NCBI RefSeq assembly: GCF_022700675.1
Contig: NZ_CP062182.1
Coordinates: forward strand, 1,550,001-1,614,000
Direction: 5' to 3'
From: Acinetobacter sp. ASP199
GTDB taxonomy: Bacteria > Pseudomonadota > Gammaproteobacteria > Pseudomonadales > Moraxellaceae
DNA length: 64,000 bases
Shown: positions 20,298 through 50,928 of the stretch, one piece after another
Position numbering within the stretch: the stretch's first letter is position 1
How the letters are laid out: each line of letters opens with the position of its first letter
The notes under the pieces: model-generated
Database searches by the model: none
Told to the model about the DNA's origin: nothing
Seen by the model: the letters and a program-made list of their open reading frames with translations, nothing else
Made by a program: the position numbers and the translations under genes

Positions 20298-21998
20298 TTA
20301 AAATAAAAAATACCTTTGCGCCATTGGCAACACTTCCGCAGGCTCACAATTCAACAACTTACCATCAGCACGTACTTCATAAATCTCAGGATCAACCTCC
20401 ATCACAGGACAGTAAGTATTGTGCTTCATATCCTTTTTCTGAATATCTCGCGTACCCTTACATGGGCTAATGATTTTATTTAAACCGAGCTTTTCATGCA
20501 CGCCTGCTTCAATCGCCACCTGTGACAAAAAAGTAATACAGGTGTTATGCACACCACGGGCATTCGCGCCAAACATCGGACGATAATGCACAGGCTGAGG
20601 TGTTGGAATGGACGCATTAATATCACCCATTGGCGCTGCTGCAATCATCCCGCCTTTAATAATCATCGATGGTTTCACACCAAAGAAAGCGGGCTTCCAT
20701 AAAATCAGATCCGCCAATTTACCTTCTTCAACAGAACCAATCTCATGACTTAAACCATGCGTAATCGCAGGGTTAATCGTATATTTAGAAATATAACGTT
20801 TCACGCGGTTATTATCGCGTGCAGGCGTATCACCTTCTAATGGCCCACGTTGCACTTTCATTTTATGTGCCGTTTGCCAAGTACGAATTACCACTTCTCC
20901 GACGCGTCCCATGGCTTGGGAATCTGAAGACATCATCGCGATTGCACCCAAGTCCTGCAAAATATCTTCCGCAGCAATGGTTTCACGACGAATACGACTT
21001 TCTGCGAATGCCACATCTTCCGCAATGGCAGGATCTAAATGATGACAGACCATCAACATATCCAAATGCTCATCAATGGTGTTGATGGTATAAGGACGGG
21101 TTGGATTGGTTGAAGATGGCAATACATTTGGCTGACCAATGGCTTTTAAAATATCAGGCGCATGCCCACCACCCGCACCTTCAGTATGATAGGTATGAAT
21201 GGTTCGGTTTTTAAATGCACCCAAAGTATCTTCTAGAAAGCCACTTTCGTTAAGTGTGTCAGTATGAATCGCCACTTGTACATCAAACTGATCTGCCACG
21301 GTCAAACAATTATCAATCGCAACAGGCGTAGAACCCCAATCTTCATGCAATTTTAAACCCACCACACCCGAGCGAATCTGTTCAGCAATCGGTTCAGGTT
21401 GGCTTAAATTGCCTTTACCGAGTAAACCAATATTCATTGGTAGATCATCAATTGCTTGAAGCATGGTGGCAATATGCCACGGTCCTGGCGTCACAGTGGT
21501 TGCAGATGTCCCTGCTGCAGGACCTGTACCACCGCCAATCATGGTAGTTACACCTGACATCAGTGCAGTTTCAACTTGTTGCGGGCAAATCCAGTGAATA
21601 TGGGTATCCACACCACCTGCAGTCAGAATCTGCCCTTCGCCTGCAATCACTTCAGTTGCCGCACCAAGTGGAATGGTAATATTAGGTTGAATATCAGGAT
21701 TTCCAGCTTTACCAATTTTCCAAATACGACCGTTCTTTAGACCTACATCCGCTTTGACAATGCCCCACCAATCAACAATCAGCGCATTAGTAATGACGGT
21801 ATCAGCAACATCATCTGCTAAAAGCTGAGATTGCCCCATGCCATCACGAATCACCTTACCCCCACCAAATTTTACTTCTTCGCCATAGGTGGTGAGGTCT
21901 TGTTCAACTTCAATAAACAGTTCGGTATCGGCTAAACGAACACGATCACCTACAGTTGGACCAAACATTTCCGCATAAGCACGGCGTGACATTTTCAT
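20298..21998 (-). CDS. ureC: Urease alpha subunit
   Basis: Catalytic subunit of nickel urease (urea to ammonia and CO2), 566 residues. All metal and catalytic residues are present: H133 and H135 (DTHIHW), carbamylated K216 (GLKLHEDWG), H245, H271, flap C318-H319 (MVCHHL) and D359. Numbers are one below the Klebsiella enzyme. It is the last gene of the minus-strand urease run, 12 bases after ureB. Confidence 0.97.
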
Positions 21999-46405: not shown

Positions 46406-47611
46406 TTATGAGGTTTGTTCTGTGGTACTGGCATCTGCATCCGTTTCATCATCCGGCTTTTTCTCTTCCACCATGCTAAATGCAGTAGCTGTATTATTCA
46501 TGGCTGGATTAGCACGTGTACTTTTCAGTTTAATTTGCAGACGTAATTCATTGGTCGAGTCAGCATTACGCAATGCTTCTTCATAAGAAATCGCACCTTC
46601 ATTATAAAGATCAAATAATGCCTGATCAAAAGTCTGCATACCAAGTTCGCGTGATTTACCCATAATTGCTTTGAGTTCATGGAAATCACCTTTCAGAATC
46701 AGATCCGATACCAATGGCGTATTCAGCATAATTTCGACTGCAGCGCGACGACCTTTACCATTCTCAGTCCGGATCAAACGCTGAGAAACAATTGCCTTCA
46801 TATTGGAAGACAAATCCATCAGCAACTGATTACGGCGTTCTTCCGGGAAGAAGTTAATAATCCGGTCGAGCGTCTGGTTAGCATTGTTGGAATGCAGCGT
46901 ACCCAGACATAAATGCCCTGTTTCGGCAAAGGCAATCGCATGTTCCATGGTTTCCGTATCCCGGATCTCGCCAATCAGAATCACATCGGGTGCCTGACGC
47001 AAAGTATTTTTTAAGGCATTGTGCCAGGAATGACTATCTACACCGACCTCACGATGGGTGATCATCGACTTCTTATGTTTATGTACATATTCCACTGGAT
47101 CTTCTACAGTGATGATATGTCCAGCAGAATTTTCATTACGGTAATCGATCATTGCAGCAAGCGAAGTCGACTTACCCGAACCTGTACCGCCTACAACGAG
47201 TACCAGACCGCGCTTTTCCATAATCACATGTTTGAGTGACTCTGGTAATTTTAACTTCTGAAAATTCGGAATTTCCGCAGTAATGGTCCGGATGACCATA
47301 CCGACATTGAGCTGCTGCTGGAACACGTTGACCCGGAAACGTGAAACTCCTGGTACAGTAATGGCAAAGTTACATTCCAGTTCTGCTTCATATTCTTTAC
47401 GCTGCTTTTCGTTCATCAGCGCATAAGCAAACAGTTTGGTTTTCTCTGGAGTAAGTTCCTGTTGACCAAAAGGCTTCATTAATCCCTGATGTTTGATACT
47501 CGGAGGAAAGTCTGCGGTAATGAACAGGTCTGAACCACCATATTCAACCACTTTGGTCAGCATATGGTGCATAAACTTACGTGCTTCTTCTAACAACTCT
47601 GCCGTGAACAT
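46406..47611 (-). CDS. pilU: Type IV pilus retraction ATPase, PilU-type (copy 1)
   Basis: Hexameric motor ATPase of 401 residues. The N-terminal PAS-like domain starts with a PilU-type motif YGGSDLFITADFPPSIKHQG. Walker A is GGTGSGKST, the Asp box IITVEDPVEY, Walker B ILIGEIRD and the His box GHLCLGTLHSNN. The C-terminal tail is acidic (KKPDDETDADAS). The ATG at 47611 follows AGGGGAAAAT; the frame opens further upstream. PilU works with PilT in twitching; pilT is not in this window. Confidence 0.92.
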   Translation of the reverse strand: MFTAELLEEARKFMHHMLTKVVEYGGSDLFITADFPPSIKHQGLMKPFGQQELTPEKTKLFAYALMNEKQRKEYEAELECNFAITVPGVSRFRVNVFQQQLNVGMVIRTITAEIPNFQKLKLPESLKHVIMEKRGLVLVVGGTGSGKSTSLAAMIDYRNENSAGHIITVEDPVEYVHKHKKSMITHREVGVDSHSWHNALKNTLRQAPDVILIGEIRDTETMEHAIAFAETGHLCLGTLHSNNANQTLDRIINFFPEERRNQLLMDLSSNMKAIVSQRLIRTENGKGRRAAVEIMLNTPLVSDLILKGDFHELKAIMGKSRELGMQTFDQALFDLYNEGAISYEEALRNADSTNELRLQIKLKSTRANPAMNNTATAFSMVEEKKPDDETDADASTTEQTS

Positions 47612-48010
47612 ATTTTCCCCTGTAATGCACAATGCTATAAATCTTCAAAATAGATTCATGCCAATATATTTTGATTTTATTGTGCAGCGTTTTTTTAAAA
47701 GCCTCAAACACATTTGATTTATAAAGATAATTTTTTCAAATCATTGTGTGAACTGATTCAAGGAAAATAAAAATAAAGGGAAATAATCTAGAGGTACTGA
47801 GAGTCTACTTCTTATAACCATATATGAATTGGACTTCAAATTTTAGCAAAGTAAATTGGTAACTCATCGAAATGAATCTACATAAATACTATTTTTTGAA
47901 TAACGAAATTAAATACGTTAGTGGCTAAAGTTTTGTAATCTTTAAGCCACTACTGAACATTCATCATCCAACTTAATTGTATTTTATTGCAGCTTAGTTT
48001 CATCGAAGTA
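47612..48010. other. AT-rich gap between the two pilU-type genes
   Basis: About 400 bases without a credible gene. An imperfect hairpin AGTGGCTAAAG...CTTTAAGCCACT lies near 47922-47956 and could end the transcript of the upstream copy, although no T tract follows. The rest is AT-rich. Confidence 0.45.
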
Positions 48011-49183
48011 TTATGTTAGTTTAGTTTCCTTAGACTGTTCCAGTATTGTCATCTTACTCCTTTCTTCCTGAAGAACTGGATTGATGCGACTACTCTTTAA
48101 TTTGATCTGCAAACGCATTTCATTACTCGAATCTGCATTACGCAAAGCTTCATCATAAGAAATGATTCCCTTGTTATACAAATCAAATAATGCCTGGTCA
48201 AAGGTCTGCATGCCCAGCTCACGTGAACGTGCCATAATGGTTTTCAGCTCGTAAAAATCTCCTTTACGGATAAAGTCAGAAACCAGCGGCGTATTCAGTA
48301 GAATTTCAACAGCAGCACGACGACCTTGCCCATCCTCAGTGCGGATCAAACGTTGAGAAATCACCGCTTTCATATTGGCAGATAAATCCATTAACAGCTG
48401 ATTACGGCGCTCTTCCGGGAAGAAGTTAATAATGCGATCCAACGCCTGGTCGGCATTATTAGAATGCAAGGTTGCCAAACACAGGTGCCCAGATTCAGCA
48501 AAGGCAATCGCATGCTCCATGCTCTCAGTATCCCGGATTTCACCAATCACGATCACATCCGGTGCCTGACGCATGGTATTAATCAGCGCGTTATGCCAGG
48601 AAACACAATCTACACCAATTTCACGTTGGGTAATCATCGACTTTTTATGCTGATAGACATATTCCACCGGATCTTCTATGGTAACGATATGTCCTTCCGA
48701 ATGGGTATTACGGTGATCAATCATGGCTGCCAGCGTAGTCGATTTACCTACACCGGTCGCACCTACAATCAGGACCAGTCCGCGTTTTTCCATAATCACC
48801 TGCTGTAGTGAATTGGGTAGTCCCAATTGCTGAAAACTTGGAATATCAGTGGTAATGGTTCGGATGACCATACCAATGTTGTGCTGTTGGTGAAAAACAT
48901 TGACCCGGAAACGTGATACACCGGGTACAGTTATACCGAAATTGCAATCCATAACTGACTTGAATTCCTTGATCTGTCGTTCATTCATCAAGGCATAGGC
49001 AAATAGACGGGTTTTATCCGCTGTCAGTTTTTGCTGACCAAACGGTTTCATCAAGCCCTGCTGTTTGATGCTTGGTGGAAAATCTGCGGTAATAAAAAGA
49101 TCGGAGCCACCATATTCAACCACTTTGGTCAACATATGGTGCATAAATTTACGTGCTTCATCGAGCAATTCGGGTGTATACAT
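48011..49183 (-). CDS. Type IV pilus retraction ATPase, PilU-type (copy 2, tandem paralogue)
   Basis: A second PilU-type ATPase of 390 residues, close to copy 1 along nearly its whole length (YGGSDLFITADFPPSIKQQG, IVTIEDPVEYV, VIVIGEIRDTE). All motor motifs are intact, with Walker A GATGVGKST. The C-terminal tails differ: this one ends MTILEQSKETKLT. The ATG at 49183 has AAGGA eight bases upstream. The pair looks like a tandem duplication that has since diverged. Confidence 0.9.
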   Translation of the reverse strand: MYTPELLDEARKFMHHMLTKVVEYGGSDLFITADFPPSIKQQGLMKPFGQQKLTADKTRLFAYALMNERQIKEFKSVMDCNFGITVPGVSRFRVNVFHQQHNIGMVIRTITTDIPSFQQLGLPNSLQQVIMEKRGLVLIVGATGVGKSTTLAAMIDHRNTHSEGHIVTIEDPVEYVYQHKKSMITQREIGVDCVSWHNALINTMRQAPDVIVIGEIRDTESMEHAIAFAESGHLCLATLHSNNADQALDRIINFFPEERRNQLLMDLSANMKAVISQRLIRTEDGQGRRAAVEILLNTPLVSDFIRKGDFYELKTIMARSRELGMQTFDQALFDLYNKGIISYDEALRNADSSNEMRLQIKLKSSRINPVLQEERSKMTILEQSKETKLT

Positions 49184-49421
49184 ATCAAGGTCCTTCGGAT
49201 CATGTCTATCGCGCGCCTTAAAACGACTCAATGCAGATCCTGAAAAATTATTATTGTGAAATCACTTATTTTTTGATGTTTTTATAAAATAGTTCTAATG
49301 ATTATTATTTTGTATTTTCAACTTCGTGAATGTGCTGAGTGATTTTTTTAAGCACTATTCCTCTCAGTTGCATTCAATGTTGCCTTTCCCCAAAGTTGTG
49401 AGGAAAGGCCTGACCACAGAT

Positions 49422-50471
49422 TTAAGCACTACGCTTTAAACCTTCCAGTCGCAGTGAAGCTGTCATATTTAACAACAGTTGTTCGGTTTTTGTCCAGCCC
49501 AGACATCCGTCAGTGACGGACTGTCCATAAAGCATTGTATCTGAAATTTTTTGATTACCATCCACCAGATGGCTTTCCAGCATTACACCGCGAACATTGG
49601 TCTGTAAACGTTCTGCCACGATCTGCGCCAATACTTCCGGCTGTAACATCGGATTTTTGGAACTGTTGCCATGACTACAGTCAATCACCAGTGCCGGCAA
49701 TTCAGCTGAATGTTTGGCTTTAATTTTCTCAATTTCAGATAACTGGTAGTTCGGACCACTATTTGATCCACGCAGAATCAGATGTGCTTTTGGATTGCCC
49801 TTAGAATTCAGAATACATGGCAATCCAGATTGGCTCATGCCCAAGAACTGATGCGGATGAGAAGCGGACTGAATCGCGTCTAAAGCAATCTGAATCGAAC
49901 CATCTGTGCCATTTTTGAAGCCGATACTGTATGGCATATGACTGGAAATTTCACGATGAATCTGAGATTCACTGGTACGTGCCCCAATCGCACCCCAAGC
50001 CAGTAAATCATCGAAGTACGCCGTCGCCATTGGACTGAGGATTTCTGAAGCAATCGGTAAACCCATGCCAATAATTTTCAGGTAAAGATCGCGCGATTTT
50101 TCCAGACCCAACTGCATATTGGATGAACCATCGAGCTCAGGATCGTATAGGAAACCTTTCCAGCCGACTGTCGTACGTGGCTTTTCAATGTAAGCACGCA
50201 TGACCAGAAAAATTTTATCGGAAATCTGTGCCTGTAATTGTTTTAATTTTTCTGCATACTCAAGCGCGGAAGCTTCATCATGGATGGAGCATGGTCCGGT
50301 AATCACCATCAGGCGGTGATCTTTACCCTCTAGAATATTTTGTATCGTTTGTCGCTGTGCGGCAATCTGTTCAGCCAATTGTGGAGACAATGGCAATTGT
50401 GCCTTCAATTGTGCCGGCAGGCTTAATAGAGTTTCAGTTTGCTGTTGTTGTGATGTAATAACGCTATTCAT
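49422..50471 (-). CDS. aroG: 3-deoxy-7-phosphoheptulonate (DAHP) synthase, class I
   Basis: First enzyme of the shikimate pathway, joining PEP and erythrose 4-phosphate. A 349-residue class I alpha protein with MVITGPCSIHDE, EKPRTTVGWKGFLYDP, ILRGSNSGPNY and DCSHGNSSKNP motifs. The ATG at 50471 is chosen: AAAGGA ends at 50480 and overlaps the earlier ATG at 50480. Which of AroF/G/H it matches best cannot be settled by eye. A long leader with two aromatic-rich peptides and an attenuator precedes it, so regulation by aromatic amino acid supply is strongly suggested. Confidence 0.93.
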   Translation of the reverse strand: MNSVITSQQQQTETLLSLPAQLKAQLPLSPQLAEQIAAQRQTIQNILEGKDHRLMVITGPCSIHDEASALEYAEKLKQLQAQISDKIFLVMRAYIEKPRTTVGWKGFLYDPELDGSSNMQLGLEKSRDLYLKIIGMGLPIASEILSPMATAYFDDLLAWGAIGARTSESQIHREISSHMPYSIGFKNGTDGSIQIALDAIQSASHPHQFLGMSQSGLPCILNSKGNPKAHLILRGSNSGPNYQLSEIEKIKAKHSAELPALVIDCSHGNSSKNPMLQPEVLAQIVAERLQTNVRGVMLESHLVDGNQKISDTMLYGQSVTDGCLGWTKTEQLLLNMTASLRLEGLKRSA

Positions 50472-50485
50472 GACTTTCATCCTTT

Positions 50486-50649: not shown

Positions 50650-50680
50650 AAAAAAACCTGATCAGGGTTGCCGATCAGGT
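50650..50680 (-). terminator. Attenuator terminator in the DAHP synthase leader
   Basis: On the minus strand an 8-bp stem ACCTGATC (50680-50673) / GATCAGGT (50663-50656), loop GGCAACCCT and a following run of six T. It lies between the promoter and the gene, so it must be read through for expression. Confidence 0.88.
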
Positions 50681-50691
50681 ATAAACTGGGT

Positions 50692-50727
50692 GGGCAACCT
50701 TTTACTTGCCCGAACGCGTTCAGGCAA
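50692..50727 (-). promoter_or_regulatory. Alternative hairpins of the aromatic attenuator
   Basis: Segments on the minus strand: 1-2 hairpin TTGCCTGAA / TTCGGGCAA with CGCG loop (50727-50706); alternative 2-3 hairpin GGGCAA (50711-50706) / TTGCCC (50697-50692); and segment 3 GGTTGCC (50699-50693) pairing with GGCAACC (50672-50666) in the terminator loop. Pairings 1-2 and 2-3 exclude each other, as do 2-3 and 3-terminator loop. The first leader peptide stops one base before segment 1. Confidence 0.75.
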
Positions 50728-50784
50728 TCATCTAAACTGCCAGAAATAATAATAAGCGTTTGAGTTTACAGGTTGCTTGAGCAT
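50728..50784 (-). CDS. First aromatic leader peptide, 18 residues
   Basis: Frame from ATG (50784) to TGA (50728) coding MLKQPVNSNAYYYFWQFR. Codons 11-15 are three Tyr, one Phe and one Trp in a row, then Q and F. The stop touches the first arm of the attenuator hairpins. The ribosome site is weak. The pattern is that of amino-acid attenuation leaders such as those of phe and trp operons. Confidence 0.75.
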   Translation of the reverse strand: MLKQPVNSNAYYYFWQFR

Positions 50785-50819
50785 GTTATGTCATTCATAA
50801 AAATGTGAATATGAAATTT

Positions 50820-50848
50820 AAAATACGCGGTATATCGCTATTTGACAA
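50820..50848 (-). promoter_or_regulatory. Sigma-70 type promoter of the DAHP synthase leader
   Basis: Minus strand: -35 TTGTCA (50848-50843), 17-bp spacer, -10 TATTTT (50825-50820). Transcription would start near 50813, about 30 bases before the first leader peptide. Confidence 0.7.
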
Positions 50849-50928
50849 GTAAAAATTGTAAAAAAAATATTTATTAGTGGGGATATTTTTGTTTATCAAT
50901 CGATCTTTTTGTCATAGAAATACCCAAA

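Follow-up and report, generated by a model that had tools for sequence, protein, structure and literature searches.

The aroG-type DAHP synthase gene of Acinetobacter sp. ASP199 is preceded by two short, aromatic-rich reading frames, and we put the probability that both are ribosome-read leaders controlling the gene in series at about 80%. This conclusion is based on the sequence anatomy, the conservation and the predicted energetics of the two leaders in the window (the whole stretch of 64,000 nucleotides that was analysed) and in related genomes; all elements of the locus lie on the minus strand. Attenuators of DAHP synthase genes are already known, and what distinguishes this locus is that two aromatic leaders follow each other. 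DAHP synthase governs the flux through the entire aromatic pathway, and a tandem sensor, if true, would represent a two-gate control of supply and poses the question why the same tRNAs are read twice. A wider scenario is put forward tentatively, with odds that we rate slightly against it: serial attenuators would respond to the same amino acids throughout the genus, acting on transcription and then on translation, the second leader would also stand before many Pseudomonas-type orthologues, and the catalogued Pseudomonas sRNA P15 would be the discarded product.

The gene (49422..50471) encodes a class I enzyme (Pfam DAHP_synth_1, E 3.4e-72). Its sigma-70-type promoter TTGTCA-17-TATTTT is located where the first-pass annotation had placed it (50848-50820) and matches the consensus at nine of 12 positions. 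Sites of comparable quality occur four times in 1 kb versus 3.2 expected, which makes it unremarkable by score alone; a loose -35/-10 pair nevertheless precedes leader 1 in all 66 relatives, and 63 of them harbor the form TTGNMA-17-TATKKT. On the opposite strand, a promoter-like TTGACA-18-AATATT (10/12; 50842-50871, plus) overlaps the aroG promoter, which could be chance. The 18-codon aromatic frame that had been proposed, MLKQPVNSNAYYYFWQFR*, is found at 50784-50728 (leader 1), and a Shine-Dalgarno sequence is not evident by eye. Its stop codon (50730-50728) adjoins segment 1 (50727-50719, UUGCCUGAA), so that the described contact between stop and first hairpin holds. Segment 2 (50714-50706, UUCGGGCAA) has, according to folding and conserved pairs, either segment 1 or segment 3 as its partner, and segment 3 (50699-50692, GGUUGCCC) pairs either with segment 2 or, as antiterminator, with segment 4 (50672-50666, GGCAACC), which comprises the terminator loop together with the two final bases of the 5' arm. 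The alternative 2:3 hairpin and the pairing of segment 3 into the terminator loop had thus been recognized correctly. The intrinsic terminator (50680-50650) is also at its proposed place, with a stem of 10 pairs (ACCUGAUCGG/CUGAUCAGGU, 50680-50656) and a run of seven U (50656-50650) instead of the six counted before. Three elements had been overlooked, namely, segment 0 (50741-50736), a GGCAGU within the Trp-Gln codons that pairs with segment 1 in the minimum-free-energy structure of 50650-50745, the second leader, and a hairpin in front of the aroG ribosome-binding site.

Under the proposed mechanism, polymerase would start at the promoter and transcribe leader 1, whose translation we infer. 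With Tyr-, Phe- and Trp-tRNA charged, the ribosome at the stop codon would cover segment 1, 2:3 would form and use up segment 3, and the terminator would end the RNA near 50650. A ribosome waiting at Tyr2, Tyr3, Phe or Trp would cover segment 0 and leave segment 1 free; 1:2 could then form, segment 3 would pair with segment 4 and polymerase would read on. Without translation, 0:1 and 2:3 are expected to form together and to lead to termination.

The 96-nt attenuator (50650-50745), which begins at the Phe-Trp codons and ends with the U-run, folds with -34.7 kcal/mol (z -3.8; none of 200 shuffles was as good) into a structure that contains 0:1, 2:3 and the terminator. In the same prediction, an RNA starting at 50728 formed 1:2 and the terminator, and one starting at 50718 formed 2:3 and the terminator. 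Each codon in turn was covered by a modeled ribosome footprint in 55 representatives (the brisouii clade, i.e. L061, L062 and L077, is left out of all sets built on them), and the free energies with and without the terminator were compared. This yielded mean terminator preferences of -11.8 kcal/mol for untranslated RNA, -10.8 for Tyr1 and -12.6 for the stop codon, and of -8.3, -8.4, -8.4 and -8.0 for Tyr2, Tyr3, Phe and Trp, respectively. In silico, the stop and untranslated states are more terminating than the mean of the Tyr2, Tyr3, Phe and Trp stalls in each of the 55 representatives. The stall at Tyr1 is more terminating than that at Tyr2 in 51 of them; a ribosome at Tyr1 would sit at too great a distance from segment 0 for good masking, and Tyr1 is predicted to be a poor stall site. 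This prediction fits the sequence record, in which no other aromatic codon of the run varies as much: the Tyr1 position encodes Tyr in 38 of 67 leaders. Such a comparison of predicted stall positions with codon conservation represents a quantitative test of the attenuation model.

At equilibrium, with the transcript ending just past segment 4 and the ribosome on the stop codon, 3:4 is favored over 2:3 in 45 of the 55 representatives (0.53 versus 0.44 in the window, for a single transcript length). Termination must therefore rest on the order of folding and on the stronger terminator. The models indicate that the ribosome's position shifts the balance between terminator and antiterminator in the right direction, and we count only this shift itself as demonstrated. 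The attenuation logic of the first-pass annotation agrees with the conservation and with the ribosome-state folding, while its version was incomplete, as it missed segment 0, the poor first Tyr codon and leader 2. Attenuator 1 is modeled as a ribosome-mediated transcription attenuator of known type, an assignment that is well supported in silico.

Our scan of genome contigs for DAHP synthases provided 75 loci, nine of them from other organisms. The remaining 66 relatives belong to Acinetobacter and one unassigned Moraxellaceae bin, and several are closely related to each other; together with the window they represent 60 distinct attenuator sequences. Leader 1 and a U-tailed terminator are present in all 66 relatives. 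The last three places of the aromatic run read Tyr-Phe-Trp in 67 of 67 leaders, and the preceding codon is Tyr or Phe in 64. The conservation of aromatic codons and hairpins across Acinetobacter, on which the earlier proposal had been made to depend, is hence observed. The mutually exclusive antiterminator and upstream hairpins are present in the window and their pairs are conserved, with thin covariation. Among the 60 sequences, 98 and 100% of the cells of helix 0:1 are paired, with no doubly changed pairs; the corresponding values are 96.7% for 1:2, 97.2% for 2:3, 96.1% for 3:4 and 99.7% for the terminator stem, the latter with two doubly changed pairs. Taken as sets, 0:1, 2:3 and the terminator have 98.6% standard pairs (slid controls 23-50%) and two doubly changed pairs, and 1:2 with 3:4 has 96.4% (slid controls 17-57%) and one. 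For the set 1:2 and 3:4, one slid control even exceeds the observed covariation score (0.070 versus 0.067) and contains more doubly changed pairs. Covariation is hardly informative here, because most segments join two pairings and hardly vary.

The attenuator is linked to one particular gene. A covariance model of attenuator 1 has a single match in its own genome and matched 124 of the 126 same-genus genomes, own included, in a draw of 299 genomes of the family; the sole DAHP synthase of the two exceptions is 48% identical, and the aroG-type enzyme is absent there. Three weak matches, two of them outside the genus (G102, G074) and the third an additional match in G231, resemble simple terminators and were discarded. 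Searches with four leader peptides gave no match in NCBIfam, and only one had a Pfam match, below the cut-off. The window's genome contains a second DAHP synthase (G000:C1:1625377-1626381, plus; L002) that is 48% identical and lacks an aromatic leader. A survey of this other DAHP synthase at 19 loci from 19 other genomes revealed no comparable ATG- or GTG-started aromatic frame and no YWF-type frame; the only candidates were Phe-rich frames with TTG starts in L096 and L097. If the proposed control is true, the leaders would mark, in Acinetobacter and its relatives, which of the two DAHP synthase genes is controlled by the end products.

Leader 2 is located between the leader 1 terminator and aroG (50615-50511). 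Its 34 codons (MTYFNYSYFSNFYWFYFNQLMNLSTQTHRPIKLK*, beginning with MTYFNYSYFSNFYWFYFNQ) follow a Shine-Dalgarno sequence GGAG (TTTTGGAGA), and read-through RNA carrying this frame could sense the same amino acids again, provided that it is translated. The aromatic frame is found in 66 of 66 relatives, with an early interruption in L063; an SD-like stretch was flagged upstream of 66 of the 67 frames, and the remaining one (L028) has GGAG before its real start. In L063, from one Acinetobacter species, the frame is broken after MYNFMTSYF and the RNA beyond is otherwise similar; this locus could serve as a natural experiment, unless the break is an error of sequencing. Codon usage was analysed in 55 representatives without L063 and the brisouii clade. 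Phe12 (TTT, 54/54), Tyr16 (TAT, 53/53) and Phe20 (TTT, 52/52) are fixed, and the C-terminal RPITLK is encoded by AGA CCC ATA ACG CTC AAA in 45/46, 44/45, 31/31, 36/37, 47/50 and 51/52 of the sequences with the commonest residue at the respective place. Other places vary freely, e.g. Tyr11 (34 TAT, 21 TAC) and Gln22 (26 CAA, 25 CAG), and none of 126 conserved aroG columns, covering eleven residue types, uses a single codon. Variants of the leader end, compared by eye, keep the RNA letters and alter the residues by compensating small shifts. The contrast between near-fixed codons in leader 2 and varying codons in aroG suggests that selection acts on the RNA and not only on the peptide.

The 3' end of leader 2 (50531-50511, AGACCCAUAAAGCUCAAGUAA), which reads AGACCC-AUAA-GCUCAAAUAA, is nearly fixed at the RNA level throughout the genus except for the brisouii clade. 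No pairing partner of this motif withstood the controls. Its pairing with segment 2 of attenuator 1 reaches strong energies in 52 sequences and was dropped, because shuffles of the motif were as good in 2 to 39% of cases among five leaders (39% in the window) and no covariation was seen. A pairing with leader 2's own aromatic codons is absent from the consensus fold. The motif occurs once in its own genome, apart from one match with three mismatches, which gives no indication of a family of similar sites. Further downstream, a hairpin without a U-run (50504-50486, GGACUG/CAGUCC) precedes the aroG Shine-Dalgarno sequence. It is present in 63 of 67 leaders, some of which carry compensatory changes (e.g. 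GGGUUGC/GCAAUCC, AGACGC/GCGUCU). L064 has a short form, and the brisouii clade, in which the leader 2 stop codon is 16 nt from the aroG start, lacks the hairpin. Folded alone, leader 2 (from 50614; z 0.17) and the hairpin region (z -0.70) do not surpass their shuffles.

A candidate target of leader 2 is the start region of aroG (50493-50464), which contains the ribosome-binding site and the AUG (50471; in-frame alternative at 50480). The aromatic codons at 50602-50572 form a candidate anti-RBS with a predicted duplex energy of -15.9 kcal/mol; in the window, ACUAUUCAUACUUU... would pair with the start region ...AAAGUCAUGAAUAG, and in many other relatives UUGGUUUUACUUU with AAAGGAAAGACCAA. The aromatic stretch would sequester the ribosome-binding site in the window's lineage unless a waiting ribosome covers it. 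Opening of the aroG start is computed to be cheaper with a ribosome on the aromatic codons than near the end of leader 2 in 49 of 55 representatives, and the mean difference is 3.1 kcal/mol versus 1.0 for synonymous recodings. In 17 of 55 representatives, versus about two expected, the relief is larger than with any of the 25 recodings. Among 33 thinned species, eight fall below p 0.05 (Fisher 4.6e-6, a guide value as the species are still related); the window itself has p 0.01, and the species of the 33 in which the switch is not seen include A. baumannii (L046, p 0.41). Tested as a duplex only, the pairing is weak, with 10 of 55 below 0.05 and a median p of 0.15, and swapped start regions of other species pair equally well or better in 42% of cases. 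L063 was left out of the duplex and ribosome-state tests of leader 2, and L061 and L062 were added in one folding set. In the window's own lineage, the models suggest that leader 2 most likely acts on translation. Its role as a translational attenuator of aroG is a reading and not a result, and we give it somewhat less than even odds.

The two leaders can be traced beyond the genus. An order-wide search matched 39 of 293 genomes, two of them from the window's genus, which together with Pseudomonas massiliensis (L065) amounts to 38 orthologue loci from other genera of Pseudomonadales, all of which harbor an aromatic leader 1. In 31 loci (L065, L112-L141) leader 1 is always of the (G)YWF type, and a simple scan detected a subsequent U-tailed hairpin in 27; an aromatic frame with an SD-like stretch precedes the gene in 25 (22 with W-R-F), all three features coincide in 22, and six loci have no leader 2. 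Both leaders are also present in L142. In L143-L148, which belong to one genus, an aromatic leader 1 (e.g. FFWWFGYGFYFSQ) and a terminator are found and leader 2 is absent. Being of another make (FFWWFGYGFYFSQ...) and located directly before the DAHP synthase, this unit looks like a natural single-leader version. In total, 23 of the 38 orthologues outside the genus have a leader 2 with W-R-F, three calls (L129, L130, L133) are doubtful as they lack this motif and may be chance, and 12 have none. The RBS switch was not seen in the 24 loci outside Acinetobacter that yielded a value (25 with L133), and leader 2 may function differently there; this negative is weakened by the rule-picked gene starts, which look doubtful in L123, L131, L133 and L140, among others.

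This distribution has to be weighed against the alternative that leader 1 is the sole regulator and leader 2 a translational-coupling device feeding terminating ribosomes to aroG, with its aromatic codons as a relic or a brake. Coupling would be in accordance with the short distance between leader 2 and the gene in the hairpin-less brisouii clade and in four orthologues outside the genus, where the stop codon lies 2-5 nt before the gene, with the hairpin that shortens this gap elsewhere, and, outside the genus, with the missing switch and the 12 of 38 orthologues devoid of leader 2. Coupling alone leaves unexplained that the aromatic density is conserved across two groups with different peptides and that codons are fixed; stalling under starvation would lower aroG, which is the wrong direction, and the window and seven others of the 33 thinned species exhibit the switch below p 0.05. 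We regard this explanation as rather unlikely.

Leader 2 might alternatively act on transcription, for instance through a Rho site that it uncovers or occludes, or as another attenuator that lacks an intrinsic terminator. Its position between terminator and gene and the conserved RNA near its end would suit such a role, and the leader 2 sequences of L131 and L139 seem to hold mutually exclusive hairpins. The lack of a U-run after the hairpin downstream of leader 2 speaks against it, as does the reasoning that stalled leader translation would favor Rho, again the wrong direction for a biosynthetic gene, and we consider it improbable. The hairpins of L131 and L139 (CGGTCGG/CCGACCG versus GCCACC/GGTGGC), identified by eye, look like a switch of their own.

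Outside Acinetobacter, the leader 1 region coincides with a catalogued RNA. According to PMC2375449, P15 goes back to a report of Livny et al. from 2006, and its Rfam family RF00627 matches the leader 1 region in seven of nine orthologue loci tested (L112 1037-1154, L121 1043-1163, L120, L123, L124, L065 and L115; no match in L126 and L137). As RF00627 is typed as a gene, the 50650 transcript could be a free-standing regulatory sRNA like P15 and not the product of an attenuator. This is very unlikely: the match in L121 extends from the aromatic codons of the reading frame into the terminator, all 38 orthologue loci have a comparable leader in front of this gene, and genomes without the gene also lack the Acinetobacter form, findings that document linkage rather than function. 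P15 is probably the terminated product of the leader 1 attenuator, and the series of two leaders, if true, would explain this catalogued sRNA. RF00627 resembles attenuator 1 in its place before an orthologous DAHP synthase, its aromatic codons (GYWFS), hairpins and terminator; it differs in being catalogued as an sRNA gene, and the Acinetobacter form fails to score in its model, with no match of the window at the gathering cut-off and P15 absent among matches up to E 5. The idea of a chance aromatic frame beside an ordinary terminator, to which AT-rich leaders with their easily arising U-rich codons might lend some credit, can be dismissed, given that the arrangement is conserved in all 66 loci and in each of the 38 distant orthologues, and only two of 1657 short frames in the window, leader 1 and leader 2, contain five consecutive aromatic codons (mean 0.45 of 2244 short frames in 20 first-order random sequences).

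An attenuator of aroR-aroF in Corynebacterium glutamicum was reportedly described by Neshat et al. in 2014. The statement of the first-pass annotation that no leader of this kind is named for DAHP synthase is accordingly contradicted by aroR-aroF, for which a Phe-Tyr-Phe leader and, upon Phe limitation, ribosome stalling and increased transcription are documented in the consulted passages (PMC11802643, PMC4046766). Both systems share an aromatic leader peptide upstream of DAHP synthase. C. glutamicum is an actinobacterium for which these passages describe one leader and no effect of Tyr supply, whereas the conserved run of Acinetobacter has Tyr, Phe and Trp codons and is followed by a second aromatic leader. 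Attenuation has also been predicted or suggested ahead of gammaproteobacterial DAHP synthase genes: a table note for Shewanella aroF reads "Attenuator sensing tyr-tRNA" with reference to E. coli work from 1980 (PMC2659441), and attenuation is suggested for Vibrio aroAI-tyrA (PMC1173090). These are other genera, and the respective passages mention no tandem leader. In the trp and pheA leaders of Escherichia coli, the ribosome's position on regulatory codons selects between terminator and antiterminator, and lack of translation results in termination. The Acinetobacter attenuator resembles them in this selector and differs in an extra alternating segment (0:1, 1:2, 2:3, 3:4, terminator), mixed Tyr/Phe/Trp codons and a different gene. 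In translational attenuators of the erm/cat type, which respond to antibiotics, a ribosome stalled on a short leader presumably releases the ribosome-binding site of the gene that follows. A comparable release is proposed for leader 2, whose codons correspond to the pathway's end products and whose pairing is only partly supported. For E. coli, trpL and pheL are named as leaders of trp and pheA (PMC11802643). We did not find aroF or P15 in the main text of a genome-wide attenuator study (PMC2965389), nor aroG, a leader or an attenuator in an A. baumannii sRNA paper (PMC3976366). Titles and abstract openings among the literature matches listed, mostly from papers available without subscription, contained no Acinetobacter or Pseudomonas leader, no tandem leader and no P15 treated as an attenuator.

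Two further observations concern other parts of the window. Just downstream of aroG, two adjacent and very similar ATPase genes are located on the minus strand (46406-47632 and 48011-49231), which resemble pilT/pilU. On the plus strand, positions 21566-21849 match Rfam RF02514 (5_ureB_sRNA) with 80.5 bits, which perhaps reflects urease coding sequence and not an sRNA.
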